Assembly (NCBI RefSeq): GCF_004923315.1
Contig: NZ_CP039647.1
Location: 124,001 to 188,000, forward strand
Source of the DNA: Azospirillum sp. TSA2s
GTDB lineage: Bacteria; Pseudomonadota; Alphaproteobacteria; Azospirillales; Azospirillaceae
Length of the DNA: 64,000 bases
Direction: 5' to 3'
Position numbers and translations under genes: made by a program
Shown: piece after piece, positions 1,603-37,945 of the stretch
Position numbering within the stretch: position 1 is the first letter of the stretch
Layout: each line of letters starts with the position of its first letter
Notes under the pieces: model-generated
Database searches by the model: none
What the model was told of the DNA's origin: nothing
Seen by the model: only the letters and a program-made list of their open reading frames with translations

Positions 1603-1811
1603 GGGCGATGAGTGTCAATCGGCTTCCAAAAACCAGCCAGCATCGGCGTCCAATATCCAGCCACGCCTGAGGTTGCAGAACCCGTTGTCCAGGGTGTCCA
1701 CGGGAGGGTCCCGCGCGCGCCGCGAAGTGCTCTCATTGCTGACGCAGCGGCGCGCGTGGGAGGGACCTGTGGGCTCCCCTGGGCAACGAGCGGGTGGATG
1801 AGATGGGCTGC

Positions 1812-2543
1812 TCAGGAGCGGTTCTTGAACCGCCAGCTTTCGTTGCCGGTTTCGAGGATGTCGCAGTGATGCGTCAGCCGGTCGAGCAAGGCGGTCGTCA
1901 TCTTGGCATCGCCGCCGAAGACGGTCGGCCATTCGGCAAAGCTCAAGTTCGTGGTGATGAGCACTGAGGTCTGGGAGTAAAGCTTGCTGATCAGATGGAA
2001 CAGCAGCTGCCCTCCGCTCTGGGAAAACGGCAGGTAGCCCAACTCGTCGAGCACAACGAGATCGACGCGGGTCAGCTGTTCGGCAAGCCGGCCGGCCTGT
2101 CCGGCCCGGGTTTCCGCTTCCAGCCGGTTCACCAGGTCGATGACGTTGAAGAAGCGGGCGCGGGCGCCATGGCGCACGCAGTTGGCCGTGATGGCAATGC
2201 ACAGGTGCGTCTTGCCGGTGCCGGTCCCGCCGACGCACACGGCGTTACGCTGCGTCTTCAGAAAGCCGCCATCGTGCAGATCGCGCACCACCGCCTCGTT
2301 GACCGGGCTGGCGGTGAAGTCGAACTCGGCCAGGGTTTTGGCCAAGGGCAGCTTGGCCGCTCCCAGCTGATAGCGGATGGAGCGGGCCTTCTTCTCCGCC
2401 ACCTCCGCCGCCAGCAGATCGCCCAGGATCTGCTGGGGCGAGCGCTGCCGCTTCAGCCCATCGCGCATCACCTCGTCGTAGGCGGCGCGCATGCCGGCCA
2501 AGCTCAGCTCGGCCATCATCGCCATCACATCATGCCGCTCCAT
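1812..2543 (-). CDS. istB: IS21 helper ATPase IstB, copy A
   Basis: This 243-residue AAA+ ATPase has the Walker A motif [10 protein letters not shown], the Walker B region [13 protein letters not shown] and the sensor block [13 protein letters not shown], all standard for IstB. IstB is the target-selection and regulatory partner of IstA in IS21 transposition. The ATG at 2543 lies inside the end of istA (14-base overlap), as usual for translationally coupled istAB. The protein is identical to the copy at 36125-36856. Confidence 0.95.
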
Positions 2544-4050
2544 GGCAGGCCTCCCCGGCGGTCCGCAGGCGGTCGTAGCGGGCGCAATCGGCGGCCGGCT
2601 CGATCCGCAACGTCAAGGCGGCGGGCACCGCCAGCGGTGCCGATGGCGTGATGTCATGGCGGCGGGCAAGGATGTTCAGCACCACGTCGCTGCCACAGGG
2701 TCCATCCTGCAATGCAGTCTGACAGGCGGCTTCCACTGCATCGAGCCCGTCGCTGAGAATGGCGCCGAGGATCGCCACGAACTGCCGGTCCGCCTCGTTG
2801 GAGCGTCCCAGCCGGGCCTTCACCTTGCTCAGCCCCGGCGGCAGCTCCCAGTCCCGGAATGGCGCGCCGTTGCGCAGCGCCCCCGGTTTGCGGGTGAGGA
2901 TGGGCAGGTAGTGCCAGGGATCGTAGACGGTGGCATCGCGGTCGAAGCGGCGCCGGTGCTCGGCCACCACCTGACCGTTCCACCACACAACGATGCGGTC
3001 GGCGTAGGCGCGCACCTGTACCGGCCGGCCAGCGGCCATGGCGGCCACGCTGTAGCGGTTGCGCTCGAAGCGGATCAGGCAGGTCTTCGAGGCGCTGACG
3101 GTGGTCTCGTGGAAGCCGTCGAACGGATCGGTCACCGCGATCAGCGCCGGCCGCTCGGCCTGGAACATCTCCCACACGCTGCGACTTCGGCATTCTGGAT
3201 GCGCGGTGTCCCGCGCCCAGCTCTCCACCTCACCACGCAGCCAGTCGTTCAGTTCCTCCAGTGTCTTCACGCGGGGACGCGGCGTGAACAGGCGCTGCCG
3301 CAAGGTGCCGACCTGATTCTCGACCTGTCCCTTTTCCCAGCCCGCCGCCGGTGTGCAGGCCACAGGCTCGACCAGATAATGCGAACACATCTGGGCGAAG
3401 CGGCGGTTGAACTGGCGGTCCTTGCCGACGAACACGGCCTCGACCGCCGTCTTCATGTTGTCGTAGATGCCACGCTCGCACAGCCCGCCGTAAAAGGCCG
3501 CGGCGCCGGCGTGGGCATCAAACACCATCTCTTGGGTCTGGCGCGGGTAGACTCGGACGAAGGGCATGCGGCTGTGGCACAGCCGGACGTGCGCCACCTG
3601 CACCTTGGTGGTGACGCCGTCCAAGATGACCCAGTCCTCGGCCCAGTCGAACTGATAGGCTTCGCCTGGGGCAAAGGTCAGCGGAACAAAGCCCTGCGTC
3701 GAAGTGACCACCGGCTGGTGCTGCCGGAAACGCTTGATGTAGCGGCGCACTGCATCATAGCCGCCCGGAAACCCCAACGCCTGAAGGCGCTTGAAGAGGC
3801 CTAGGTAATCGAGCCGGTCCCGCGCCGGCTGACGATCGTTCTCCTCGACCAGCCGCTCCAACTCCTTCTGGAAGGCCCCCAACTGCGGATAGGGCTGCAC
3901 CTGCCGCTCATAGCGCGGCGCCGTCTCCCCCGAGCGCAGGTACTTGCTCACCGTCTCCCGCGACACCTTCAGCGACCGGGCGATCGCCCGCTCACTCTTC
4001 CCCTTCGCGTGCTCCCGTCGGATCCGCGCTATCGTCTCCACCGTCAGCAT
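2530..4050 (-). CDS. istA: IS21 transposase IstA, copy A
   Basis: This 506-residue transposase has an N-terminal HTH ([21 protein letters not shown]), a DDE core that starts at [10 protein letters not shown] with the second aspartate in [13 protein letters not shown], the acidic residue in [14 protein letters not shown], and a C-terminal beta-rich domain ([20 protein letters not shown]). It cuts and joins the IS ends, working with IstB. The length and motif order are complete, so it should be active. It is identical to the copy at 34618-36138. Confidence 0.95.
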
Positions 4051-4167
4051 CCTCGCTTGGCCACCCTGTCGTCCAACCCAGGGTGGAAGTCTGCCAGATC
4101 AGGAGGTGGCTGGGTTTTGGACGCCGATCACCCCCGAAACTGGCCTACTGTTCCACGCCGATGCACA

Positions 4168-6008
4168 CCCTGGAGCTTGCCCGACAGCTGATGGGCACGC
4201 CGAGGCATCTGTCTCAGCACCCGGGTGGTTTTGTGCTGACGCAGGGTCGGCTCGACGAACTCGTCCCCATTGAACCCGCCGCTATGGAGGACCGGCAGGT
4301 TATCGAATGGGACAAGGACGACATCGACGTCCTCCGCATCATGAAGGTCGACGTCCTCGGCCTTGGCATGCTCGGCTGCATGCGCAGGGCCTTCGAAATC
4401 CTGGAGGAGCACAAGGGCATCCGCATGGACTTGGCGGGAATCCCGGCCGAGGACCCGGCGACCTACGCGATGATCCGGCGGGCCGACACATTGGGCGTTT
4501 TCCAGATCGAGAGCCGGGCGCAGATGGCCATGCTGCCGCGGATCAAGCCGGGGACCTTCTACGACTTGGTCATTGAGGTGGCCATCGTCAGGCCGGGCCC
4601 GATCCAGGGTGACATGGTGCATCCGTATTTGCGCCGTCGTGAGGGGCTGGAGCCGGTGGAATACCCGAAACCCGAGCTCGAGGTCGTGCTGGGACCGACC
4701 TTGGGGGTGCCGCTTTTCCAGGAGCAGGCGATGCGGGTCGCCATCGAATGCGCGGGCTTCACCCCCGGCGAGGCCGACCAGTTGCGGAAGTCGATGGCCA
4801 CCTTCAAGTTCACCGGCGGCGTCAGCAGGTTCCGCGACAAGCTGGTCAACGGCATGGTGGCGCGCGGGTACACCCAGGATTTCGCGGAGGCGACTTTCAA
4901 GCAGTTGGAAGGCTTCGGGTCCTACGGGTTCCCCGAAAGCCACGCGGCTTCCTTCGCCCTGATCGCCTACGCCAGCAGCTGGATGAAATGCCATCATCCC
5001 GAGGTGTTCTGTGCCGCCCTGCTGAATGCGCAGCCGATGGGCTTCTACGCACCCGCACAGATCGTCCGGGATGCGCGCGAGCACGGCGCCGAGGTTCGAC
5101 CGGTCGACGTCAACGCTTCGCGCTGGGACTGCACCTTGGAGCCAATGCTGGACGGCAGGTTGGCCGTCCGGCTTGGTTTCCGGATGGTCAAGGGGCTGGC
5201 CAACGCCGCCGCGGCCGGAATCGTTGCCGCCCGCGAGGACCGGCCTTATGGCAGCGTTGAGGACTTGTGGCGCCGGGCGGGTGTGCCGGTGGCGGCTCTT
5301 CGCCAGTTGGCGGCCGCCGATGCCTTCGCTGGCCTTGGTCTGAGGCGCCGGGAAGCGGTCTGGGCCATCCGGGCGCTCAGGGATGAGGCACTGCCGCTGT
5401 TTGCGGCGGCCGGGGCCGAGCGGGAGGCTGATGAGCCGGAGGTCGCCCTCAGGCCCATGAGCGCGGGCAGCGAGGTGGTCGAGGACTACTCGACGACGGG
5501 CTTGAGCCTGCGTAGCCATCCGCTGTCGTTCCTGCGCAGGGATTTCCGACGTCAGGGCATCATCCCCTGCACTGACCTCGCTCGCACGCGCGACGGACGC
5601 CGGGTCACGGCGTCCGGCTTGGTACTGGTCAGGCAGCGGCCGGGAAGCGCCAACGGGGTTTTGTTCATCACGCTTGAGGACGAAACCGGTATTGCCAACG
5701 TCATCGTCTGGAAGAAGCTCTTCGAGCAGCAGCGCCGGGTCGTCCTGGGCGCCACCATGATGGCGGTGAAGGGCCGTGTACAGGTCGAGGGCGAGGTCAT
5801 CCACCTGATCGCTGAGCGGTTGACCGACCAGACGAACCTGCTGCGGTCGCTTGGTGGCCGAGGGGAGCCGATGCCGTTGAAACAGTGCCGGGCTGATGAG
5901 GTTGGGATGGTCGCGGCTAAGCCGCAGATGCCGCAGGCAAAGGAAATGTACGACCCCAACCTGCGGCTCGGGTCCGGCATCAAGCCGCAGACGAGGGACT
6001 TTCGATAG
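4168..6008 (+). pseudogene. dnaE2: Error-prone DNA polymerase DnaE2 (ImuC), 5'-truncated
   Basis: From 4168 the plus strand encodes about 613 residues of the C-terminal part of DnaE2: [49 protein letters not shown], the helix-hairpin-helix and tau-binding regions, and an OB-fold ([20 protein letters not shown]). Full DnaE2 is about 1100 residues. The N-terminal PHP domain and the palm strand with two of the three catalytic aspartates are gone, replaced by the end of IS21 copy A. An ATG upstream in IS sequence (4083) keeps the frame open, but a product would lack catalysis. No imuA or imuB is nearby. Intact DnaE2 performs SOS-induced translesion synthesis. Confidence 0.9.
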
Positions 6009-10249: not shown

Positions 10250-10717
10250 ATGAGTAGGCGCATGAACCTGCCATCCGCAGCGCTCCGCGGATTTCACCGA
10301 ATTGCTCTTGCCGCCATGCTGATGCCTTTGGCCGGTCACACAACCCTCGCGGCCGAGATCTCCGTGATCGCCGGAGACCGGATCGAAGTGGAAGGGCGGG
10401 ACATCCACCTCTGGGGTGTCCAGGCGCCGGAGGCCGATGCCATGTGCCATGGAAATGGCCAGGGGGATTCCTGCGCCAAGGTGTCCCGCCGCCTACTCCA
10501 GGCCCTCATCGGCAACGATGATGTCATCTGCATCGTGAAGGACGGCAGCCCGGACAAGCCGGTCAGCGCCCAATGCTCGGTCAACGGCGCTGACCTCGGC
10601 CACCTGATGATCACCTCGGGATGGGCAACAGACGACCGGGCCGAGAGCGCAGGGTTCTATGAACTCCAGGAGCAGGCGGCACGAACCGAACGGGTGGGAA
10701 TGTGGAAGTACCGGTGA
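10250..10717 (+). CDS. Secreted thermonuclease-family (SNase-like) protein
   Basis: This 155-residue protein has a signal peptide (RIALAAMLMPLAGHTTLAAE) and a reduced staphylococcal-nuclease fold: VIAGDRIEVEGRDIHLWGVQAPEA, then ASARRLLQ-like CAKVSRRLLQALIG, the core VSAQCSVNGADLGHLMITSGWA and a final ERVGMWKYR. The family cleaves DNA and RNA with calcium in the periplasm or outside the cell. The canonical Arg in GVDAPE-like and later positions is only partly kept, so activity is uncertain. It is a single gene, convergent with the Lrp regulator. Confidence 0.8.
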   Translation: MSRRMNLPSAALRGFHRIALAAMLMPLAGHTTLAAEISVIAGDRIEVEGRDIHLWGVQAPEADAMCHGNGQGDSCAKVSRRLLQALIGNDDVICIVKDGSPDKPVSAQCSVNGADLGHLMITSGWATDDRAESAGFYELQEQAARTERVGMWKYR

Positions 10718-10730
10718 GGCCAGCACCCAA

Positions 10731-11204
10731 TCAGGCGTCGATCGGGATCTTGGTCTCGTACTTGACCCGGCTGATCACCGTCAGGGTGATGAACCGCTTG
10801 ATCAATGGGTTGGCGTAGAGCGTTGCCCGGGCGAATTTCTCGAATTCACTCATGTTCCTGACGCAGACCACCAGCACATAGTCGGTCGATCCGGTGACCA
10901 AATAGCACTGCATCACGCAGTCCTGGGCGTGGATGGTCTTCTCGAAGGCATCCATCAATACCCGGTCGTCGCCCTTGAGCTCGACTGTCACAATCAGCTG
11001 GATGTGGCTGCCGAGCTTGCTGGGATCGACGATCGCGACATCCTTGGCGATGACCCCAGCCTCGCGCAACCGGCGGACCCGGCGCAGACAGGTCGGCGGC
11101 GACACCGCAACCGCATCGGCGAGCTCCAGATTGGTGATCTGGCTGTTCCCCTGAAGCAGGTTGATGATCTTCCGGTCGATTTGGTCGAGTTCGATGTCAG
11201 GCAT
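10731..11204 (-). CDS. Lrp/AsnC-family transcriptional regulator
   Basis: At 157 residues this is a full-length Lrp/AsnC protein. It starts MPDIELDQIDRKIINLLQG and has the winged HTH ITNLELADAVAVSPPTCLRRVRRL, then a RAM ligand-binding domain (VTVELKG, CYLVTGSTDYVLVVCV). These regulators sense amino acids and control linked transport or metabolism. It is divergent from the kinase gene at 11465 across a 260-base gap, so it is the likely local regulator of the biosynthetic cluster. That link is inferred from position. Confidence 0.93.
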   Translation of the reverse strand: MPDIELDQIDRKIINLLQGNSQITNLELADAVAVSPPTCLRRVRRLREAGVIAKDVAIVDPSKLGSHIQLIVTVELKGDDRVLMDAFEKTIHAQDCVMQCYLVTGSTDYVLVVCVRNMSEFEKFARATLYANPLIKRFITLTVISRVKYETKIPIDA

Positions 11205-11464
11205 GGGCGACCGCTCGTTTAAGGAGATTTCACACTTATGAGTGTCGCGCCTTGCGCCGTCAATTTTTCCATCGTGACAAACCGGGTGGCAGAATTAGAA
11301 ATTTCATAACGTCCAGATGGCGCTACAGTCTGCTCATCACGACGCAATGAACTGCGCCGCGGCGCAAACAGCTTCCCAGTAGTAGCTAATTATCCCCGTT
11401 AGAGCGGGGACACTCGCCTAAACATCAACAATAGAAACTGACCCATTTAGCGAAGAGGTTTCGA
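11205..11464. promoter_or_regulatory. Divergent promoter region between Lrp gene and biosynthetic cluster
   Basis: The 260-base region is AT-richer than its flanks. It holds a perfect 14-base palindrome TGCGCCGCGGCGCA at 11353-11366 and a small hairpin (TCCCCG at 11393-11398, CGGGGA at 11405-11410) in the leader of the plus-strand operon. GAAGAGG lies a few bases before the kinase ATG at 11465. No known riboswitch fold was recognised. The palindrome is a candidate operator for the Lrp-type regulator. Confidence 0.45.
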
Positions 11465-12430
11465 ATGCCCGGAGATGTGATCTCTCGGTTTGCCTCCGTG
11501 CGCCTTGGCACCAGGGGAAATCAGCAAAAAGAACACGGTTTCGGCCAAGTGAACGGTCATCACGGCGAGATCCTCCAGGGGGTTTTCCCGGACGATGCAG
11601 GCCGCCTGCACCGCGGTCTCGTCACGCTCCCGTGCAACATCGTTTCATCCACCGCCGTCTTCCGCCCGGCTCCAGGGAGCCTGGTCACCGTCCCCGACGA
11701 CAAGCTCAAGGCGGCCGAGGCCGCGCGGCTGACGCTGGACAGCCTGGGCCTGCATGATCAGGGCGGCCACCTGACAGTGGAGAGCAGCATCCCGGTCGGC
11801 CTCGGCATGGGGTCCTCGACCGCCGACGTGGTGGCCGCCATCCGCGCCGTCGCTGACGCCCACGGCGCGGCCCTCGGCGCCGACGAGGTAGCCCGGCTGG
11901 CGGTTCGGGCGGAGACGGCCAGCGACAGCATCATGCACGGCGACCTCGCCGTGCTCTTCGCCCAGCGCGAGGGCATTGTGTTGGAGCATCTCGGCCCCGC
12001 CCTGCCGCCGCTGGAGGTCCTCAGCGTCAACACGGCCCCCGGCGCCCTTGTGGACACCGTGAAGCAGCCTCCGGCCGACTACGACGAGTGGGAGGTCCAG
12101 GCCTTCCGGCCACTGCGCGGCATGCTGCGGCGGGCGATCCGCACCGGCGACGCGGCTCTGCTCGGCCGGGTTGCCACGGCCAGCGCCCGAATCTCCCAGC
12201 GCCATCTGCCCAAGCCCGCCTTCGAGGAGATCAACGCCATCGCGGCCTCCGCCGGGGCGCTCGGCATCCAGGTCGCTCACAGCGGCACCGTCGTCGGCCT
12301 GCTCTTCGACCCCCGCAACCCGGCCACGACCCGCCGGATCGCCGAAACGGCCGCCCGCCTCGAGGTCTTCGGCCTGCCCCCCGCTTTCCATTTCCGCACC
12401 GATGCCGCCGAGGTCCGCCATGTCGCTTGA
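11465..12430 (+). CDS. GHMP kinase, PduX/L-threonine-kinase-like
   Basis: This 321-residue GHMP-superfamily kinase has the N-terminal signature GQVNGHHGEILQGVF (PduX proteins have a CGELxQG block here), the ATP-binding motif IPVGLGMGSSTADV at about residues 109-122 and the C-terminal HSGTVVGLLFD glycine loop. PduX and BluE phosphorylate L-threonine to O-phospho-L-threonine for cobalamin side chains, but no cobalamin genes are here. The next gene, a PLP-dependent beta-replacement enzyme starting inside this stop codon (11-base overlap), suggests instead that the kinase activates an amino-acid hydroxyl (Ser, Thr or homoserine) as a leaving group. The substrate is inferred. Confidence 0.85.
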   Translation: MPGDVISRFASVRLGTRGNQQKEHGFGQVNGHHGEILQGVFPDDAGRLHRGLVTLPCNIVSSTAVFRPAPGSLVTVPDDKLKAAEAARLTLDSLGLHDQGGHLTVESSIPVGLGMGSSTADVVAAIRAVADAHGAALGADEVARLAVRAETASDSIMHGDLAVLFAQREGIVLEHLGPALPPLEVLSVNTAPGALVDTVKQPPADYDEWEVQAFRPLRGMLRRAIRTGDAALLGRVATASARISQRHLPKPAFEEINAIAASAGALGIQVAHSGTVVGLLFDPRNPATTRRIAETAARLEVFGLPPAFHFRTDAAEVRHVA

Positions 12431-13505
12431 GATGACGATGTCCCAGCCCCTGTCCCGCGAGTCCCGTGGCTTTCCCGATTATGAACTCCCTCGCCTGGTG
12501 CGGCTGACGGACAACCTGCATGGCGCCGCCTTCTTCCTGATGAAGCTGCTCCCGGCCCGGCACATGCTGGACCGCGCGGCGGCCGACGGCCGCCTGAAGC
12601 CCGGCGGCACCATCTGCGAGACGACGTCGGGGACCTTCGGTCTGGCGCTCGCCATGCTGGCGGCGGTGCGCGGCTACAAGCTCATCCTGGTCAGCGACCC
12701 GGCCATCGACGAGCACCTGCACAAGCGCCTGCTGGAACTGGGCGTCACGCTGGAGATCGTCGAGAAGCCCTATGAGGTCGGCGGCTTCCAGACCGCCCGC
12801 CTCGACCGGCTGCGCGCCGCGCTGGAGGCCAACCCGGGCAGCTTCTGCCCCTCGCAATATGGCAACGCCGACAACCCGCGTGCCTACGCCGAGGTGGCCG
12901 AGCAGATCGCCGAACGCCTCGGTCATGTCGACTGCCTCGTCGGCACCGTTGGTTCCGGCGGCTCGATGTCGGGCATCGCCCGCTTCCTGCGCCACCTCAA
13001 CCCCGACCTTCACGTCATCGGCGTCGATACCCCCAACAGCGTCGTCTTCGGCCAGCCCGACGGCAAGCGTCTGCTGCGCGGCCTCGGCAACAGCTTGGTG
13101 CCGCCGAACGTCGACCATCGCCAGTTCGACGAAGTCCATTGGGTCGGCGCCGCAGAGGCGTTCCTGGCCACCCGCCGCCTGCACCAGCACCACGCGCTCT
13201 ACCAGGGCGGCACCAGCGGGGCGGCCTACCTGGTGGCCGAATGGTGGGCACGCACCCATCCCGACCGCAAGGTGGTGACGCTGTTGCCCGACGAGGGCCA
13301 CCGCTACGTCGCCACCATCTACAATGACGATTGGCTTGCAGCGCTGCCGGGCTGGACCGGCGTGCTGCCCGAAGCCCCGCAGCCGGTGGCGCATCCCAGC
13401 GACATCCTGCCCAGCTGGAGCAGCTTCCGCTGGGACCGCCGGACGCTGGACGAGGTGCTGGCGGCAGGCACCCCGGTGGCGCGCAACCTCGCGGAGGCCG
13501 CGTGA
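12420..13505 (+). CDS. PLP-dependent cysteine-synthase-family enzyme
   Basis: The start chosen is the ATG at 12420, which overlaps the kinase stop; a second ATG at 12432 is possible. The 361-residue fold-type II PLP enzyme has the lysine region FFLMKLLPARHMLDRA, the substrate loop CETTSGTFGLALAML and the phosphate-binding GTVGSGGSMSGIARFL. Cysteine synthases have NPTGSVKDR and STSGNTG at these places, so the active site is altered. Relatives such as SbnA use O-phosphoserine with an amino acid as nucleophile, and others make aminopolycarboxylates. Here the product is probably a beta-substituted alanine or homologue made from the kinase product. This is inference from context. Confidence 0.85.
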   Translation: MSLEMTMSQPLSRESRGFPDYELPRLVRLTDNLHGAAFFLMKLLPARHMLDRAAADGRLKPGGTICETTSGTFGLALAMLAAVRGYKLILVSDPAIDEHLHKRLLELGVTLEIVEKPYEVGGFQTARLDRLRAALEANPGSFCPSQYGNADNPRAYAEVAEQIAERLGHVDCLVGTVGSGGSMSGIARFLRHLNPDLHVIGVDTPNSVVFGQPDGKRLLRGLGNSLVPPNVDHRQFDEVHWVGAAEAFLATRRLHQHHALYQGGTSGAAYLVAEWWARTHPDRKVVTLLPDEGHRYVATIYNDDWLAALPGWTGVLPEAPQPVAHPSDILPSWSSFRWDRRTLDEVLAAGTPVARNLAEAA

Positions 13506-14731
13506 TGCCGCGCCTTCTGCTGTTCGTCGAGAGCAACACTTCGGGCACCGGCCGCCTGTTCGCCCACACGGCCCGCGACCTTGGCTTCGAGCCGGTGCTG
13601 ATCAGCCGCCAGCCCAGCCGCTATCCCTATGTCGCTGAGGACTCCATCCGCAGCATCGAGGCCAATTCCGCCGACCTGACCGTTCTGCGCTCGCTGGTGC
13701 GGCAGCTGGCGCACAGCGAGGGGGTGGCCGGGATCACCTCCAGTTCGGAATATTTCATTGCCACCGCCGCCCGCCTGGCCGCCGAGTTCGGCCTGCCGGG
13801 ACCGGATGCCGACGCGGTGGCCGCCTGCCGCAACAAGGCAACCCAGCGCCGCCGCCTGGACGAGGCCGGTGTCGACCGCGTGCGCCATGCCGAAGTCACC
13901 GACGCCGCCGATGCCGTCCAGGCCGCCATCGGCATCGGATTGCCCGTTGTCCTGAAGCCGGTGGCCGGATCGGGCAGTGTCGGCGTTCGGCTCTGCGCCA
14001 CGATGGCCGAGGTGGCGGCCCACGCCAGATCGCTGCTGGCCGACCCGACCTGTGGCGCACTGCTGGTCGAGGAGGTCGTCCGGGGCGACGAGTATTCGGT
14101 GGAGATCTTCCACGACGCCGTCATCGGCGTGACCCGCAAGCACCTGGGCGCCCTGCCGCACTTCGTTGAGATGGGCCACGATTTCCCGGCACCGCTGGCC
14201 ACGGCCGCGGCGGACCGCATCGCGGGCTTCGCGCTGGCCGCGACGCGGGCGCTCGGCCTGACCTGGGGGCCGCTGCATGTCGAGCTTCGCCTCGGCGAGG
14301 ACGGCCCGCACCTGATGGAGGTCAACCCGCGGCTCGCCGGGGGATTCATCCCCGAGCTCGTCCGCCAGGCCACCGGCATCGACCTCATCAGGGCGACCGT
14401 CGAACTGGCCGTCGGCCGGACGCCGGAGGTGACGCCGACCCGGCAGGAGCACGCGGCAATCCGCTTCCTCACGCCACCCGACGACGGACTGTGGTTCGCT
14501 ACCGAGGGTCTGGAGGCGGCACGGGGTGCCCCCTTCCTGCGCGACCTGCGGCTCTACCGTGCAGCCCCGCTGCTGATCGCCCTCCGCGGCGATTTCCAAG
14601 ACCGCCTCGGCCATGCGCTCACCAGCGCTCCCACCCTGGAGGGCGCGGTGGCCGCCGCCGAACTGGCGCGCCGCGCCGTCCGCTTCCGTGTCGCGGCGGA
14701 CGGCACCGGATCCCTTGCCACCGTCGCCTGA
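13505..14731 (+). CDS. ATP-grasp carboxylate-amine ligase
   Basis: This 408-residue protein has the ATP-grasp layout: N-terminal Rossmann-like part (PRLLLFVESNTSGTGRLF), central LPVVLKPVAGSGSVGVRL (ATP lysine and glycine loop), LLVEEVVRGDEYSVEIF and the metal/ATP residues LHVELRLGEDGPHLMEVNPRLAGG. It resembles L-amino-acid ligases and carbamoyl-phosphate-synthase-like ligases that join a carboxylate to an amine through an acyl phosphate. The ATG at 13505 shares a base with the previous stop, so the two are translationally coupled. It most likely ligates an amino acid to the product of the PLP enzyme. Confidence 0.88.
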   Translation: MPRLLLFVESNTSGTGRLFAHTARDLGFEPVLISRQPSRYPYVAEDSIRSIEANSADLTVLRSLVRQLAHSEGVAGITSSSEYFIATAARLAAEFGLPGPDADAVAACRNKATQRRRLDEAGVDRVRHAEVTDAADAVQAAIGIGLPVVLKPVAGSGSVGVRLCATMAEVAAHARSLLADPTCGALLVEEVVRGDEYSVEIFHDAVIGVTRKHLGALPHFVEMGHDFPAPLATAAADRIAGFALAATRALGLTWGPLHVELRLGEDGPHLMEVNPRLAGGFIPELVRQATGIDLIRATVELAVGRTPEVTPTRQEHAAIRFLTPPDDGLWFATEGLEAARGAPFLRDLRLYRAAPLLIALRGDFQDRLGHALTSAPTLEGAVAAAELARRAVRFRVAADGTGSLATVA

Positions 14732-14757
14732 CCGGAACAGCAGCAGGAGCCCCTTCC

Positions 14758-15687
14758 ATGTCCTCAACCTCCATTGCGGCCGGCGGACCGTCGCGCGCCG
14801 GGGCGAACCCGGCGCTGCTCTCCCTGCTGGCGGGCGCGCTCGCCATTGCGCTCGCCCCCATCCTGGTGCGGGTCAGCGAACTCGAACCGATCGCCACCGC
14901 CTTCTACCGGCTGGTCATCGCGCTGCCCTTCTTCTGGCTCGGTATGCTCGCCGAACGGAAGGCGCCCCAGGCCGCCAGCGCGCGCGTCACCGCCACTGAC
15001 ATGGTGCTGATGGGGGTGGCCGGGCTGATGCTGGCGGGGGACTTGGCACTCTGGCATCTCAGCATCACCATGACCTCGGTGGCCAAGGCGACGCTGTTCA
15101 ACAACTGCGCCCCGGTTTTTGTCGCCCTGCTCGGCTGGTTGCTGTTCGGTGAGCGGATCGGCCTCGGCCTGATTGTCGCCCTGGCAGTCTCTCTGTCGGG
15201 CATGGCGCTGCTGATCGGCGACGGGCTGTTCGCGTCGGTGGGAAGTGCTGCGGAGGGGCAATGGCAGGGTGACGCCATCGCAGTCAGCACCGCCGCCTTC
15301 TACGCCGTCTACCTGATGGCGGTGAAACGCCTGCGGTCCAGCCATTCGACCAGCGTCATCATGGCGGGATCGAGTGCTGCCGCCGCCCTGGTGCTGGCGG
15401 TGGCCGCCTGGATTGAGGGCGGCCCGCTGCTGCCCGCAACCGCCTGGGGCTGGGCCGTGGTGCTGGCGCTGGGTGTCGCCTGCCATGTCATCGGCCAGGG
15501 CCTCATCACCCATGCGCTGGCCCACCTGCCCGTCACCTTCTCGTCCATCGGCCTGCTCATCCAACCGGTCGCGGCGGCGGCGCTGGCCTGGATGCTGTTC
15601 GGCGAGGCCCTGGGCCCGCTTCAATGGCTCGGCGGCGCGCTGGCGCTGGTCGGCATCACGCTGGCCCGCCGGACCTCCAGCCGCTGA
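14758..15687 (+). CDS. EamA/DMT-family transporter
   Basis: This 309-residue protein has about ten hydrophobic segments in two EamA repeats, for example LLSLLAGALAIALAPILV, MVLMGVAGLMLAGDLALW and GALALVGITLA, with the usual FxRxxIALPF and LLFGE features. DMT-family proteins commonly export amino acids and small metabolites across the inner membrane. Its place inside the cluster points to export of the pathway product. It starts 26 bases after the ligase. Confidence 0.9.
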   Translation: MSSTSIAAGGPSRAGANPALLSLLAGALAIALAPILVRVSELEPIATAFYRLVIALPFFWLGMLAERKAPQAASARVTATDMVLMGVAGLMLAGDLALWHLSITMTSVAKATLFNNCAPVFVALLGWLLFGERIGLGLIVALAVSLSGMALLIGDGLFASVGSAAEGQWQGDAIAVSTAAFYAVYLMAVKRLRSSHSTSVIMAGSSAAAALVLAVAAWIEGGPLLPATAWGWAVVLALGVACHVIGQGLITHALAHLPVTFSSIGLLIQPVAAAALAWMLFGEALGPLQWLGGALALVGITLARRTSSR

Positions 15688-15753
15688 CCCGGCGACCAGC
15701 CACGCTCCGACCAGCCATAAACCCGAAACCCCTTCTCACCGGGAGCCACCGTC

Positions 15754-17295
15754 ATGGTGATCAGCAACGCCCAGATCCTGGCCCACCTCGGCGACACCGG
15801 CCGGGTGGCTGGGACGCTCAACCCGACCGCCCAGTCCATCCTGTTCGGCGACGTCGCCGACGACGCCATCGACCGTGACCTGCCCTGGATCACCCAGGTC
15901 GACCGGGCGCACCTAGTGATGATGGCCGAGACCGGCCTGCTGCCGGTGGCGCAGGTCTCGCCTCTGCTGCGGCGCATCGACGAGATGGAAGGATCGGGCT
16001 TCGCCGTCCTGCGCGGCCGTTCGGCCCCGCGCGGCGTCTACCTGCTCTACGAGACCTATCTCATCGCCGACCTCGGCGAGGAGATAGGCGGCGTTCTCCA
16101 GACAGCGCGCTCGCGCAACGACCTGGGCGCCACCGTGCTGCGCCTGCGGTTGCGCAGCGTCGTCGCCGACCTGCTGACCGGCCTGACCCGGCTCCAGACC
16201 ACGCTCCTGCGCCGCGCCGCGGCCTGCACCGACGCCGTGTTCCCAATCTACACCCACTATCAGCCCGCCCAGCCGGTGACCCTGGCCCACTATTACGCTG
16301 GGGTCGCCGCGGCGCTGGACCGCGACGCCGAGTCCCTGCATGCCGTGCTGGCCGATCTCGACCGCTGCCCGCTGGGTGCTGGAGCGGTGGGTGGCACCGG
16401 GCTTCCCATCGACACCCGGCGGACGGCCGCCCTGCTCGGCTTCTCGGCGCCCTGGACGCACTCCATCGACGCCGTGGCCTCGCGCGACGCCGTCCTGCGC
16501 CTGCTGGCGGCCCTGGGCATCCTCGGCGTGACGCTCAGCCGCCTTGCCCATGACCTCCAGCTGTGGACCACCGGCGAGTTCGGTTTCCTGACGGTGGCCG
16601 ACGATCTGGTCGGCACCAGTTCGATGATGCCGCAGAAGCGCAACGTCTACATGCTGGAGCACGTCAAGGGTCTGGCGGCGGCGCCTATGGGTGCCCTGAC
16701 GTCGGCAGCGATGGCGATGCACGCCACCCCCTTCTCCAACTCCATCGCCGTCGGCACCGAGGGCGTCAAGCCGGTGTGGTCGGCGGCCTCGGGAATGCTG
16801 GATGCGCTGACGCTGGTCCGGCTGATCGTGGCCGGGGCGGAGCCGAATCAGGGAGCCATGCGCCTCAGGGCGGTGTCCGGCCAGACCAACGCCACCGCGC
16901 TGGCCGACTGGCTGGTCCGGGAGCATGGCATGCCGTTCCGCCGCGCCCACCATGAGGTCGGGGACATCATCCGCTCGATGATGGTCCAGGGTGTGGTCGA
17001 TCTGGAGACTGCCGCGCGCGAGGCTCGGCCGGAGTGGTTCCGCGGCACCCGGTCGCCCGTGCTGCGGCCGGTCGACATCGCCGCGGCCCAGGAGCATGGC
17101 GGCGGCCCCGGGCGCGAATCCACCGCCAGCGAGATCGAACGGGTGCGGGACTCGCTTCGCAGCCGCCGTGGCGCGCTGGTGGAGCAGCGGCGGCGCTGGC
17201 GCCGGGCAAACCGGTCCTTGCGTTTGGCGGTCGATGGCGTCCTCGGCATTGCCGTTCTCGACCGGACGGGCCGTGGCCGCTCCGGCCAAGCATAA
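15754..17295 (+). CDS. Argininosuccinate-lyase-like enzyme
   Basis: This 513-residue member of the fumarase/aspartase superfamily is closest to ArgH. It has the conserved QTARSRNDLGATVLRLRLR block, THYQPAQPVTLAHYY, and the signature GTSSMMPQKRN that provides the catalytic serine loop. The superfamily eliminates fumarate from N-substituted aspartates. ArgH proper is about 460 residues; here a basic C-terminal tail (RQRRRWRRANRSLRLA type) extends it. No argG or other arginine gene is nearby. In this cluster it could release an amine from an aspartate adduct and so complete transfer of nitrogen. Confidence 0.85.
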   Translation: MVISNAQILAHLGDTGRVAGTLNPTAQSILFGDVADDAIDRDLPWITQVDRAHLVMMAETGLLPVAQVSPLLRRIDEMEGSGFAVLRGRSAPRGVYLLYETYLIADLGEEIGGVLQTARSRNDLGATVLRLRLRSVVADLLTGLTRLQTTLLRRAAACTDAVFPIYTHYQPAQPVTLAHYYAGVAAALDRDAESLHAVLADLDRCPLGAGAVGGTGLPIDTRRTAALLGFSAPWTHSIDAVASRDAVLRLLAALGILGVTLSRLAHDLQLWTTGEFGFLTVADDLVGTSSMMPQKRNVYMLEHVKGLAAAPMGALTSAAMAMHATPFSNSIAVGTEGVKPVWSAASGMLDALTLVRLIVAGAEPNQGAMRLRAVSGQTNATALADWLVREHGMPFRRAHHEVGDIIRSMMVQGVVDLETAAREARPEWFRGTRSPVLRPVDIAAAQEHGGGPGRESTASEIERVRDSLRSRRGALVEQRRRWRRANRSLRLAVDGVLGIAVLDRTGRGRSGQA

Positions 17296-17315: not shown

Positions 17316-18110
17316 ATGCCAAGCATGGCCAAGGTTGCGCCCAGGGCGAGGGCCGGGAGACCGGCGGCCGCCAACAGCCCCCGGCCGTTCCCGGTGATGA
17401 GGGACCCGAGGGTCGGCGGGAGCCTGGAGGGGATGCCGGACGAAGCCCTGCTGTCCTCTTTACTCGCGATGGCCGCCCCGGACGCCGACGGCGATCTCCT
17501 GGCCCTGCGCCTGCTGGCTGGGCATGGCTCATTGGAGACGGCGATCGCAGCGGCGTCAGCGGGGAAGCTGCCCGGCGGCATACCCTGGGACGATCATGCT
17601 GCCCTTCGCTTCCAGGCCGTGCTCGAACTGGCGGCACGCTTGGCAAGGCCTGTGCTGGAGCAACGCCCGATCCTGTCCTCTCACGAGGATCTGGTCACCT
17701 ATGCCCGCCTCCGCGCCGCGTGCTCGTCCGTCCAGACGCTGCGCCTGCTGTTCCTCGACCGCCAGCGCAAGTTGATTGCCGATGAGCTTCACCGAACCGG
17801 GTCAGTCGGTGACGTCGCCTTGTATGTCCGGGAGATCATGAGTCGTGCGCTGACCATGGACGCCAGTGGTTTGGTGATCGTCCACAGCTGCCCCAGCGAT
17901 GAACCACCGAACCCGGCCAGCGTCAGGGTGTCCTGCGCGGACATCCAGAAGGCCGGGAGCTTGCTCGGGGTCGAATTGGTCGAGTACCTCCTCATCGGCA
18001 GGCGCTCTTACGTCACCCTGCTGGGCGAACCTGTCGTGAAGCGGTTGGCCCGCCTTGTTGCAGCGGAACGGGACGGTGCAACGGCGTCGCCGGAAGCCGC
18101 CGTCCGTTAG
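17316..18110 (+). CDS. RadC/JAB-domain protein with degenerate metal site
   Basis: The start is the ATG at 17316 behind GAGAGG. The 264-residue protein has the RadC order: an HhH-like N-terminal part (DLLALRLLAGHGSLETAI), then the MPN/JAB domain with LRLLFLDRQRKLIADELH, LVIVHSCPSDEPPNP and GVELVEYLLIGRRSYVTL. In RadC the metal motif is HNHPSG followed later by an aspartate. Here the second histidine is a cysteine (HSCPS) and the aspartate position is not acidic, so peptidase-type catalysis is unlikely. RadC homologues are often found on mobile DNA with unknown function. Its end overlaps the convergent XRE gene by four bases. Confidence 0.82.
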   Translation: MPSMAKVAPRARAGRPAAANSPRPFPVMRDPRVGGSLEGMPDEALLSSLLAMAAPDADGDLLALRLLAGHGSLETAIAAASAGKLPGGIPWDDHAALRFQAVLELAARLARPVLEQRPILSSHEDLVTYARLRAACSSVQTLRLLFLDRQRKLIADELHRTGSVGDVALYVREIMSRALTMDASGLVIVHSCPSDEPPNPASVRVSCADIQKAGSLLGVELVEYLLIGRRSYVTLLGEPVVKRLARLVAAERDGATASPEAAVR

Positions 18111-18756: not shown

Positions 18757-19005
18757 TCACTTGAACGGGTTGTCGACCGTATCCGTTGGCTTCGGCGGAG
18801 GGATCTGGTCGGGAAGGTCAGTTTCGGTCTCCAGGGATTTCACGACGGCAGCCAGCAGGTCACGCAGCTTGCGGGCATGTTCCAGTCCTTGCTTATCCCT
18901 GGTCAGATCGATTGACCCATAGAGCGCCACCCGGTCGGTGCCGTTCTCGACCTGGAGTTCACCGATCTGCATGGCTCCGGCGTCGTCGGCATACGGCTTG
19001 ATCAT
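18757..19005 (-). CDS. Small hypothetical protein coupled to NUC1 nuclease
   Basis: This 82-residue protein starts MIKPYADDAGAMQIGELQVENGTDRVALYGSIDLTRDK and continues with a helical stretch EHARKLRDLLAAVV. Its ATG overlaps the nuclease stop codon (ATGA), so it is translationally coupled. The family is unknown to me. The lack of a signal peptide argues against a periplasmic inhibitor of the secreted nuclease, but a cytoplasmic immunity role is possible. Confidence 0.65.
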   Translation of the reverse strand: MIKPYADDAGAMQIGELQVENGTDRVALYGSIDLTRDKQGLEHARKLRDLLAAVVKSLETETDLPDQIPPPKPTDTVDNPFK

Positions 19006-19880
19006 CGCATCAACTCCTTCAGGAACTTCAGCACGTCGCGTTCAGAGAAACCGGGCTCATCCTTCTTCCGTCCCCGCCCCGAGGCCTGAGGTTCCGGCAG
19101 AGCCAGTACCGTGGACTTGGCCGTGGCCGGGATGCCTGGAAAGACCGAGATGCCGGTGACCTCCTCCAGCTGTGCAATGGGGATGCGCTGGTAATCGTTC
19201 CCTGGCGCGTTGGGCACGAGATAGGCGGCGGCCTCACGGCGACGCGGATCGTAGATGGCCTTGAAGACGTGGGTCGGCACGAGAACCCGGCCGCCGATAC
19301 GCTGGAGGTTGGCGCCCTGGAAGACGGGACCAGTCACGACATAGACCTCGCCGCGGGTGTTGGCGAGATGGCGGGTCGCCCCTTCGATGGCACTCCAGAT
19401 CCCACGGTTGCTCTCACCGACCTGGGGGATCATGTTGGCCAGAGAAAAGCTCTCCTGCTGGGCCTTCGGCGTTGGCATGTCGCCGTTCGGCGCCATGTGG
19501 CCGCGGTCGAAGCCAGAGCGCTTGAAGTCGGCCAATTCGGAGCGCTCGTCCGGCGGCAAGGCCGTTTCGGCGTGGAAGGCGCTCGCCTCCGGACGCTCGA
19601 GGCCCTTGGCGGCCGCAACGCTGTCGCGGGTCAGGTGCTCAACAGCATAAAGAGGAGTCCGTGTCACACCGGAATGAAGAACGGCGAAGGCTGAGTAGCA
19701 AAGCTCCCGCGTCTTCGCAGCCAGCTTCTGATTGATCAGGTCCGGCGCTACGGCCGCAGCATAATGATCAGGGCAAGCAGTCGATGCGGCGTCAGCGGGA
19801 GCAGAAAGGGCGAACAGGACGAGAGCCGGAAGCGAGCAGGCGCCCCCCCATCGGGCAACGACATATAGTCCGCGAAGCAT
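19002..19880 (-). CDS. Secreted DNA/RNA non-specific endonuclease (NUC1 family)
   Basis: The start is the ATG at 19880, which has GGGAG six bases upstream; an ATG at 19892 is less well placed. The 292-residue protein has a signal peptide (ACSLPALVLFALSAPADA) and a beta-beta-alpha-metal nuclease domain with the motif FDRGHMAPNGDMP (catalytic His in DRGH), followed by SLANMIPQ and VYVVTGPVF. The family cleaves single- and double-stranded nucleic acid with magnesium in the periplasm or medium. It is the middle gene of a three-gene minus-strand group. Confidence 0.92.
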   Translation of the reverse strand: MLRGLYVVARWGGACSLPALVLFALSAPADAASTACPDHYAAAVAPDLINQKLAAKTRELCYSAFAVLHSGVTRTPLYAVEHLTRDSVAAAKGLERPEASAFHAETALPPDERSELADFKRSGFDRGHMAPNGDMPTPKAQQESFSLANMIPQVGESNRGIWSAIEGATRHLANTRGEVYVVTGPVFQGANLQRIGGRVLVPTHVFKAIYDPRRREAAAYLVPNAPGNDYQRIPIAQLEEVTGISVFPGIPATAKSTVLALPEPQASGRGRKKDEPGFSERDVLKFLKELMR

Positions 19881-19933
19881 GGTGTCTCCCATTCCCAGAA
19901 GTGGCCGAAGCTACGACAGCTTGCAGTGCACTG

Positions 19934-34490: not shown

Positions 34491-34617
34491 GATCGCCGCG
34501 TGTGCATCGGCGTGGAACAGTAGGCCAGTTTCGGGGGTGATCGGCGTCCAAAACCCAGCCACCTCCTGATCTGGCAGACTTCCACCCTGGGTTGGACGAC
34601 AGGGTGGCCAAGCGAGG

Positions 34618-36138
34618 ATGCTGACGGTGGAGACGATAGCGCGGATCCGACGGGAGCACGCGAAGGGGAAGAGTGAGCGGGCGATCGCCCGGTCGCTGAA
34701 GGTGTCGCGGGAGACGGTGAGCAAGTACCTGCGCTCGGGGGAGACGGCGCCGCGCTATGAGCGGCAGGTGCAGCCCTATCCGCAGTTGGGGGCCTTCCAG
34801 AAGGAGTTGGAGCGGCTGGTCGAGGAGAACGATCGTCAGCCGGCGCGGGACCGGCTCGATTACCTAGGCCTCTTCAAGCGCCTTCAGGCGTTGGGGTTTC
34901 CGGGCGGCTATGATGCAGTGCGCCGCTACATCAAGCGTTTCCGGCAGCACCAGCCGGTGGTCACTTCGACGCAGGGCTTTGTTCCGCTGACCTTTGCCCC
35001 AGGCGAAGCCTATCAGTTCGACTGGGCCGAGGACTGGGTCATCTTGGACGGCGTCACCACCAAGGTGCAGGTGGCGCACGTCCGGCTGTGCCACAGCCGC
35101 ATGCCCTTCGTCCGAGTCTACCCGCGCCAGACCCAAGAGATGGTGTTTGATGCCCACGCCGGCGCCGCGGCCTTTTACGGCGGGCTGTGCGAGCGTGGCA
35201 TCTACGACAACATGAAGACGGCGGTCGAGGCCGTGTTCGTCGGCAAGGACCGCCAGTTCAACCGCCGCTTCGCCCAGATGTGTTCGCATTATCTGGTCGA
35301 GCCTGTGGCCTGCACACCGGCGGCGGGCTGGGAAAAGGGACAGGTCGAGAATCAGGTCGGCACCTTGCGGCAGCGCCTGTTCACGCCGCGTCCCCGCGTG
35401 AAGACACTGGAGGAACTGAACGACTGGCTGCGTGGTGAGGTGGAGAGCTGGGCGCGGGACACCGCGCATCCAGAATGCCGAAGTCGCAGCGTGTGGGAGA
35501 TGTTCCAGGCCGAGCGGCCGGCGCTGATCGCGGTGACCGATCCGTTCGACGGCTTCCACGAGACCACCGTCAGCGCCTCGAAGACCTGCCTGATCCGCTT
35601 CGAGCGCAACCGCTACAGCGTGGCCGCCATGGCCGCTGGCCGGCCGGTACAGGTGCGCGCCTACGCCGACCGCATCGTTGTGTGGTGGAACGGTCAGGTG
35701 GTGGCCGAGCACCGGCGCCGCTTCGACCGCGATGCCACCGTCTACGATCCCTGGCACTACCTGCCCATCCTCACCCGCAAACCGGGGGCGCTGCGCAACG
35801 GCGCGCCATTCCGGGACTGGGAGCTGCCGCCGGGGCTGAGCAAGGTGAAGGCCCGGCTGGGACGCTCCAACGAGGCGGACCGGCAGTTCGTGGCGATCCT
35901 CGGCGCCATTCTCAGCGACGGGCTCGATGCAGTGGAAGCCGCCTGTCAGACTGCATTGCAGGATGGACCCTGTGGCAGCGACGTGGTGCTGAACATCCTT
36001 GCCCGCCGCCATGACATCACGCCATCGGCACCGCTGGCGGTGCCCGCCGCCTTGACGTTGCGGATCGAGCCGGCCGCCGATTGCGCCCGCTACGACCGCC
36101 TGCGGACCGCCGGGGAGGCCTGCCATGGAGCGGCATGA
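34618..36138 (+). CDS. istA: IS21 transposase IstA, copy B
   Basis: This 506-residue protein is identical to the product of 2530-4050: N-terminal HTH, DDE core from [10 protein letters not shown], and C-terminal beta domain. It is intact and presumably active. It overlaps istB by 14 bases. Confidence 0.95.
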
Positions 36139-36856
36139 TGTGATGGCGATGATGGCCGAGCTGAGCTTGGCCGGCATGCGCGCCGCCTACGACGAGGTGA
36201 TGCGCGATGGGCTGAAGCGGCAGCGCTCGCCCCAGCAGATCCTGGGCGATCTGCTGGCGGCGGAGGTGGCGGAGAAGAAGGCCCGCTCCATCCGCTATCA
36301 GCTGGGAGCGGCCAAGCTGCCCTTGGCCAAAACCCTGGCCGAGTTCGACTTCACCGCCAGCCCGGTCAACGAGGCGGTGGTGCGCGATCTGCACGATGGC
36401 GGCTTTCTGAAGACGCAGCGTAACGCCGTGTGCGTCGGCGGGACCGGCACCGGCAAGACGCACCTGTGCATTGCCATCACGGCCAACTGCGTGCGCCATG
36501 GCGCCCGCGCCCGCTTCTTCAACGTCATCGACCTGGTGAACCGGCTGGAAGCGGAAACCCGGGCCGGACAGGCCGGCCGGCTTGCCGAACAGCTGACCCG
36601 CGTCGATCTCGTTGTGCTCGACGAGTTGGGCTACCTGCCGTTTTCCCAGAGCGGAGGGCAGCTGCTGTTCCATCTGATCAGCAAGCTTTACTCCCAGACC
36701 TCAGTGCTCATCACCACGAACTTGAGCTTTGCCGAATGGCCGACCGTCTTCGGCGGCGATGCCAAGATGACGACCGCCTTGCTCGACCGGCTGACGCATC
36801 ACTGCGACATCCTCGAAACCGGCAACGAAAGCTGGCGGTTCAAGAACCGCTCCTGA
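36125..36856 (+). CDS. istB: IS21 helper ATPase IstB, copy B
   Basis: This 243-residue AAA+ protein is identical to the product of 1812-2543, with [10 protein letters not shown] and [10 protein letters not shown] motifs. A 199-base non-coding end segment follows it up to the IS terminus. Confidence 0.95.
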
Positions 36857-37055
36857 GCAGCCCATCTCATCCACCCGCTCGTTGCCCAGGGGAGCCCACA
36901 GGTCCCTCCCACGCGCGCCGCTGCGTCAGCAATGAGAGCACTTCGCGGCGCGCGCGGGACCCTCCCGTGGACACCCTGGACAACGGGTTCTGCAACCTCA
37001 GGCGTGGCTGGATATTGGACGCCGATGCTGGCTGGTTTTTGGAAGCCGATTGACA

Positions 37056-37945
37056 CTTTCCAGGCTTTCTGGAGCCGCGGCGGATGGCCGAGAAGGCGCT
37101 GACGGCGGTGATCCAGGAGGCCTACATCCAAGGCATCTCGACCCGCTCGGTGGACGATCTGGTCCAGGCGATGGGAATGTCCGGCATCTCCAAGAGCCAG
37201 GTCAGCCGGTTGTGCGCCGAGATCGATGACCGGGTGAAGACCTTCCTCGGCCGCCCCATCGAGGGCGACTGGCCCTACCTGTGGCTGGATGCCACGTATG
37301 TGAAGGTTCGCCAGAACGGGCGCATCGTCTCGGTCGCCGTCACCATCGCGGTGGCGGTCAACACCGACGGCCGCCGCGAGGTGCTGGGCATGGACATCGG
37401 CCCGTCGGAGGCCGAGACCTTCTGGATCGAGTTCCTGCGTAAGCTCAAGCGCCGGGGGCTGAATGGCGTCAAGTTGGTGATCTCCGATGCCCATGGCGGC
37501 ATCAAGGCCGCCGTCACCCGCGTCTTCCAGGCGACGTGGCAAAGGTGCCGGGTGCATTTTTCCAGGACCGCCCTTGCCCATGCTGGCAAGAGCGGACGCC
37601 GCGTCGTGGCGGCCTTCATCGCCACCGCCTTCGCGCAGGACGATGCGGCCTCCGCCCGAACACAGTGGCGGCAAGTGGCCGATCAGGTCCGTCCAAAACT
37701 GCCGAAGCTTGCCACCCTGATGGACGAGGAGGAAGAAGACGTTCTGGCTTACATGACCTTTCCCAAGGAGCATCGGGCCAAGCTTCACTCGACAAACCCC
37801 ATTGAACGTCTCAACGGCGAGATCAAGCGGCGCACCGAGGTCGTGGGTATATTTCCGAACGAGGAAGCGATTACACGGCTCATCGGTGCCATCCTCTTGG
37901 AACAGAACGATGAATGGGCCGTTCAGCGGGCACGATACATGACAC
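37056..37945 (+). pseudogene. IS256-family transposase, both ends lost
   Basis: From the IS21 end the frame reads [19 protein letters not shown] and continues through the mutator-type core [53 protein letters not shown] and [17 protein letters not shown] to RARYMTL. The first 80 or so residues are missing at the IS21 junction. After 37945 the normal ending is replaced by unrelated sequence. It is a different element from the IS256 copy at 44693. Confidence 0.88.

Follow-up and report, generated by a model that had tools for sequence, protein, structure and literature searches.

The 64,000-nucleotide stretch of contig NZ_CP039647.1 from Azospirillum sp. TSA2s that was analyzed here (the window) contains, at 11465–17295 on the forward strand, genes for a PduX-like kinase, a pyridoxal phosphate (PLP)-dependent enzyme, an ATP-grasp ligase and an ArgH-like lyase, with an EamA exporter gene between the last two and a divergent Lrp-family regulator gene upstream. 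The four enzymes constitute a co-inherited unit that recurs in several bacterial phyla, while the regulator and exporter belong to this locus in Azospirillum only. As a whole, the locus would be a portable four-enzyme module for a non-proteinogenic amino acid that was captured around an older, Lrp-controlled exporter, a scheme to which we give close to an even chance.

Recurrence of the four-enzyme cassette

The five open reading frames are intact and lie on one strand, with successive gaps of −11, −1, +26 and +66 nt, and their Pfam families agree with a first-pass annotation of this DNA that described five same-strand genes with overlaps or short gaps and a divergent Lrp gene. The same annotation treated all five genes as one pathway, a view that has to be replaced by that of four enzymes joined to an older Lrp–EamA pair. 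The cassette of kinase, PLP enzyme, ATP-grasp ligase and ArgH-like lyase is found in rhizobia, a betaproteobacterium, a cyanobacterium, an actinobacterial metagenome-assembled genome and many Streptomyces, and genes for nonribosomal peptide synthetases (NRPSs) often adjoin it. Neighboring genes were listed with a simple gene finder, which mis-called some frames, and were used mainly where Pfam agreed. The order seen in the window, without EamA, occurs in Rhizonema (L028, the sole case in 339 cyanobacterial genomes), in Sulfuriferula (L007) and on two Streptomyces plasmids (L005, L006) where NRPS genes adjoin; the order in the actinobacterial assembly (L059) is PLP–ATP-grasp–ArgH–kinase. Since gene order differs between cassette groups, adjacency has been maintained despite rearrangement. 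Furthermore, the ATP-grasp ligase and lyase are fused beside the PLP enzyme and kinase in an alphaproteobacterium (L062) and on rhizobial plasmids, and the PLP enzyme and ATP-grasp ligase form a single open frame in nine Streptomyces loci.

A match to the ATP-grasp profile (E ≤ 1e-80) is present in 66 of 393 Streptomyces genomes. In 40 loci drawn from these profile-positive genomes, and selected by their ATP-grasp gene, the PLP enzyme and the ArgH-like lyase are each present 40 times and the kinase 35 times, one of the five kinase-lacking loci being truncated by a contig end. Protein distances correlate over 46 loci (rho 0.93 for ArgH–PLP and 0.42–0.47 for pairs involving the kinase); none of 500 permutations reaches any of these values, to which shared whole-genome descent contributes. 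Within Azospirillum the cassette occurs in 7 of 45 species, and the kinase, searched in 42 species, is present in exactly the same seven as the ATP-grasp ligase, a match whose probability would be 1/C(42,7) = 3.7e-8 for independent species, although the species are not in fact independent. The grouping of the enzyme genes is not due to chance, given their joint occurrence in several phyla and the shared species distribution of kinase and ATP-grasp ligase, and the cassette is probably mobile between distant bacteria.

These results support, through recurrence and fusion, the earlier view that the enzymes act as a set. A lack of co-conservation in other genomes had been named as evidence against that view; the four enzymes are co-conserved across phyla, whereas the five-gene set is not. 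The annotation also knew of no pathway with this gene set, yet this genome is not alone in carrying the set, which is common in Streptomyces, often by NRPS genes. A compact Streptomyces cluster (L115, L114, L123, L124 and similar loci) comprises the PLP enzyme, the ArgH-like lyase, the ATP-grasp ligase, a single adenylation–thiolation–thioesterase NRPS, the kinase and TauD; that of L115 also has a CmlA-type hydroxylase and hydroxyphenylglycine-type genes. The phenylalanine-hydroxylase motif that marks uridyl-peptide clusters was not found in the collected loci.

The kinase and the PLP enzyme

The first gene (11465–12430, + strand) encodes a GHMP-family small-molecule kinase (Pfam GHMP_kinases_N, 3e-14, and GHMP_kinases_C); with regard to the PduX/BluE L-threonine kinases, the domains indicate the GHMP fold only. 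The protein carries the motif HHGEILQG, and GE..QG and G..SS are conserved in an alignment of 15 relatives. By its motif the kinase presumably resembles the cobalamin-linked PduX. A role in cobalamin synthesis is unlikely as the kinase is absent from 35 of the 42 Azospirillum species, yet it is the sole member of its family in this genome. Pairs of kinase and PLP enzyme lacking the ATP-grasp ligase and ArgH-like lyase were observed on rhizobial-type plasmids (L009, L145, L144), and in two of these cases a threonine synthase is annotated next to the pair.

The second gene (12420–13505, + strand) encodes a fold-type-II PLP enzyme resembling the SbnA/CysK β-replacement synthases (Pfam PALP, 3e-37). 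Its start was set to the ATG at 12420, with in-frame ATGs further in as possible alternatives. The SbnA family model TIGR03945 gives 241 bits, below the curated cut-off of 349.95. In SbnA, Arg132, Tyr152 and Ser185 have been named as the residues that select O-phosphoserine (PMC12414870). A phmmer alignment places Lys42, Arg127 and Tyr147 of the window enzyme on SbnA residues, Arg127 on Arg132 and Tyr147 on Tyr152, and these side chains are conserved among the aligned sequences (Lys42 in 56/56, Arg127 in 55/56 and Tyr147 in 55/56), but the Ser185 position is Gly. The retained phosphate-selecting pair fits the earlier proposal of a kinase followed by a PLP enzyme acting on its O-phospho product.

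In Streptomyces melanogenes (L141, 8105–10921), DUF364, a putative heavy-metal chelation domain, and an iron ABC transporter lie with a kinase beside a gene of this PLP subfamily. In two large-genome Actinomycetota (L066–L067), DUF364 lies beside a gene of the same subfamily, an ATP-grasp gene, an MR/MLE enzyme and a major facilitator superfamily (MFS) transporter.

The ArgH-like lyase

The lyase (15754–17295, + strand; Pfam Lyase_1 and ASL_C2) clears the ArgH model TIGR00838 narrowly, at 297 against 279.5 bits, which accounts for the name argH that RefSeq gives it in a sister species. It scores 465 bits against the C-terminal half of the PRK02186 fusion family. The fumarase/aspartase superfamily motifs RSRND, TH.Q and SS.MPQ[KR].N are present in the window lyase and nearly all cassette relatives; every aligned lyase covering the site keeps RSRND, and nearly all keep SS.MPQ[KR].N. 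The residues characteristic of ArgH at the arginine moiety of the substrate are replaced in nearly all group A and B lyases (ED[IV]H by RG[LV]Y, RSRNDQ by RSRND[LI], and YNKD.QEDKE by N[SA]I[AE]V.TE), and group C lyases carry other residues in place of the ArgH-specific motifs. Judged by its substrate residues, this protein is not an argininosuccinate lyase, while the motifs for fumarate formation are kept. An arginine role is rejected, as the genome has its own ArgH elsewhere (613 bits, 36% identical to the window lyase) and the arginine-site motifs are lost; the earlier statement that this is not an arginine enzyme stands, and a misleading argH label is corrected.

That the locus consists of standard arginine or cobalamin genes that have strayed onto a secondary replicon is very improbable. 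The RefSeq name, the narrow pass of TIGR00838 and the PduX-like motif of the kinase speak for that explanation, which is largely refuted by the true ArgH, the lost arginine-site motifs and the lack of such a kinase in 35 of the 42 Azospirillum species sampled. The lyase is also related to the 6g3d chain, which we take to be ethylenediaminedisuccinate (EDDS) lyase, and could form a C–N bond, or be a minor participant, in the synthesis of an EDDS- or aspergillomarasmine-like aminopolycarboxylate metallophore. The kinase–PLP pair with the iron transporter and DUF364 in S. melanogenes is in line with such a product. Nevertheless, no metal-uptake gene was seen at the window locus, the iron-linked pair lacks an annotated ATP-grasp or ArgH gene in the stretch seen, and a monomer fits the NRPS neighbors better, making a metallophore improbable.

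The ATP-grasp ligase

The third enzyme (13505–14731, + strand) is an ATP-grasp carboxylate–amine ligase with the C-terminal domain of L-amino-acid ligases (Pfam ATP-grasp_4 and LAL_C2), in which the catalytic residues K151, E260, E272, N274 and R276 are invariant. It scores 375 bits against the N-terminal half of PRK02186 (NCBIfam), an 890-aa ATP-grasp–ArgH fusion family. Ten further residues (S81, E196, S198, E222, H225, H258, G280, I282, F321 and R367) are invariant in 55/55 cassette ATP-grasps and mostly different in related ligases outside cassettes, whereas the catalytic residues are general.

The function of this ligase has more than one candidate, as it may attach aspartate, form an amide or make a dipeptide. 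A pathway of the bacilysin kind, in which kinase, PLP enzyme and lyase build an amino acid that the ATP-grasp ligase joins to another for export by EamA, would agree with the LAL_C2 domain and the solved relatives BL00235 and BacD, with distant cousins that combine ATP-grasp and PLP enzymes with an MR/MLE-family enzyme and an MFS transporter, and with rhizobial relatives adjoining lysine 2,3-aminomutase and EctB-type genes. We consider it unlikely, given that the cassette ATP-grasps differ from these relatives at many otherwise invariant positions and that the enzyme is kept in the cassette even beside NRPSs or a second ATP-grasp. Its inheritance together with its partner enzymes, and its fusion to them, in such settings too make it unlikely that this enzyme is no more than an optional dipeptide ligase. 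Equally unlikely is a scheme following the logic of SAICAR synthetase and adenylosuccinate lyase, with the ATP-grasp enzyme coupling aspartate to a carboxylate on the molecule made by the PLP enzyme, after which the lyase frees fumarate to leave a primary carboxamide, so that a β-substituted amino acid amide and not a diamino acid would result. The fused or adjacent ATP-grasp and ArgH genes, the specialized ATP-grasp subfamily and a lyase retaining aspartate/fumarate rather than arginine motifs all suit such a scheme. It leaves the nucleophile of the PLP step unspecified, NRPS neighbors normally require a free carboxylate, and the PLP–ATP-grasp fusions are equally consistent with other orders of reaction.

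At rhizobial loci L163, L165, L166, L173 and L174, on plasmids and genomes, related ATP-grasps lie by different makers of unusual amino acids: genes annotated as GntG aldolase, DapF-like, EctB and lysine 2,3-aminomutase, and a PanD-like gene recognized by eye. These neighborhoods may represent an unexplored family of peptide-like metabolites in symbiotic bacteria.

Proposed pathway

The substrates, step order, product and export proposed here are inferred from the enzyme families and their neighbors. First, the kinase would phosphorylate L-threonine, or a similar β-hydroxy amino acid, on its hydroxyl group. A dedicated kinase points to a hydroxyl amino acid other than serine, such as threonine, since SbnA uses available phosphoserine without one, and the GntG-type threonine-aldolase genes that adjoin several cassettes likewise point to threonine or a relative. 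Next, the PLP enzyme would expel the phosphate and add an amine, with aspartate as the donor. The presence of an ArgH-like lyase suggests an aspartate adduct and fumarate release; this enzyme would release the carbon skeleton of aspartate as fumarate, and the nitrogen that stays behind would give a 2,3-diamino acid, of which 2,3-diaminobutyrate would be the simplest. The ATP-grasp ligase of each cassette would take this same intermediate as its substrate, forming an amide bond and perhaps attaching aspartate before the lyase step. NRPSs or a second ATP-grasp ligase coexist with the cassette at many loci, and this coexistence suggests that the cassette supplies a monomer which other enzymes assemble. 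Beside the Azospirillum cassette neither an NRPS nor another ligase was seen, and EamA, expressed from the Lrp promoter, would thus export a free amino acid or small amide.

Several observations weigh against this pathway. The position of SbnA Ser185 is Gly in the window PLP enzyme, and an SGTFG loop replaces the usual SGN; the SGT loop is found in all cassette PLP enzymes except the outlier L063, and also, where readable, in the kinase–PLP pairs lacking the ATP-grasp and ArgH genes. The kinase is a putative threonine kinase by its resemblance to that family, and its best curated matches are weak homoserine-kinase hits. Four Streptomyces loci have a TauD gene and no nearby kinase, suggesting that the hydroxylated substrate may vary, and group C ArgH-like proteins are only ~25% identical. 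Finally, a kinase–PLP–lyase route to a 2,3-diamino acid has no obvious need for the ATP-grasp ligase, which is poorly explained.

The Lrp–EamA pair and the history of the locus

The Lrp/AsnC-family regulator gene (10731–11204, − strand; Pfam HTH_AsnC-type and AsnC_trans_reg) is separated from the kinase gene by an intergenic control region (11205–11464), the part of which up to ~11358 corresponds to the ancestral Lrp–EamA promoter region; a sigma-70 scan of the control region gave no match. The EamA/DMT exporter (14758–15687, + strand; Pfam EamA, 2e-31) occurs in 10 of 45 Azospirillum species. In Azospirillum B510 (G021), Lrp and EamA are divergent neighbors without the cassette, and the blastn pieces that end at window position 11358 and start at 14727 sit 61 bp apart. 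Another species (G002) has the same cassette-free pair at ~69% identity. Because the two genes are adjacent without the cassette in both genomes, Lrp and EamA are, judged from this arrangement, older at the site than the cassette. Alignment with B510 and G002 shows conservation of the upstream region that holds GAATTAGAAATTT and GCGCTACAGTC, and these two elements constitute a candidate operator in the ancestral promoter region.

Downstream, a RadC-like JAB-domain gene (17316–18110, + strand; Pfam RadC) begins 20 nt after the lyase. It is 88–96% conserved 3′ of the cassette at five Azospirillum loci (L023–L027), was not found at the cassette-free B510 locus (L147), and is tied to the cassette in Azospirillum only. 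The simplest history is that the kinase, PLP and ATP-grasp genes were inserted between the promoter and EamA, and that ArgH and then RadC arrived downstream; precise loss of the cassette on both sides of EamA is a less simple alternative.

An IstA/IstB-type (IS21-like) element is present twice, at 1611–4168 and 34500–37057; the 2558-bp copies are identical, lie in inverted orientation and flank a 30-kb segment holding the cassette. A thermonuclease-like gene (10250–10717) and a DNA/RNA non-specific endonuclease gene (19002–19892) lie on either side of the locus. The host genome shares 94% DNA identity with A. oryzae and A. ramasamyi.

Relation to known systems and significance

The SbnA/SbnB route to L-2,3-diaminopropionate (staphyloferrin B; CmnB-type in capreomycin) shares with the proposed pathway a PLP-dependent β-replacement in which an O-phospho amino acid receives its amine from another amino acid, and the phosphate-selecting Arg and Tyr are kept in the cassette enzyme. 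In contrast, that route uses no kinase, ATP-grasp ligase or lyase; phosphoserine is a primary metabolite that needs no dedicated kinase, and SbnB oxidizes the glutamate adduct. The L-amino-acid ligases such as BacD combine ATP-grasp and LAL_C2 as the window enzyme does, but similarity is low and the cassette-specific residues differ. PRK02186 (NF002563), which has no described function in the library, is the best match of both the window ATP-grasp ligase and the lyase, one per half; in the window these are two genes split by EamA, and their scores fall under the cut-off, as expected for halves.

The friulimicin and uridyl-peptide clusters, in which cysteine-synthase-like and ArgH-like enzymes serve to form 2,3-diaminobutyrate, provide a lead. 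They share with the proposed pathway a threonine-derived 2,3-diamino acid and, as at many cassettes, an NRPS setting, but they make NRPS monomers, whereas the window has no NRPS beside the cassette. For the 2,3-diaminobutyrate of the uridyl peptides, threonine and ammonia are given as precursors, and deletion of an npsG homologue indicates that the gene proposed for this step is needed (PMC4572928).

At the Azospirillum locus, a module widespread among Streptomyces occurs in a standalone form coupled to an exporter. It is possible, although doubtful, that the cassette represents an undescribed mobile route that places the nitrogen of aspartate on a β-hydroxy amino acid, with the ATP-grasp ligase and ArgH-like lyase as a coupled pair, and that supplies an NRPS monomer and, in Azospirillum, an amino acid secreted via the captured Lrp–EamA pair. 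If the known 2,3-diaminobutyrate clusters hold the same four genes, the Azospirillum cassette would be a new member in a new setting. The four-gene signature beside NRPSs in many Streptomyces would allow genome miners to predict an unusual amino acid before the peptide is isolated. The Azospirillum copy, which has an exporter and a regulator but next to which no assembly line was seen, offers a simple setting for identification of the product, and the locus illustrates how a biosynthetic cassette can take over a regulator–exporter pair that was already in place.

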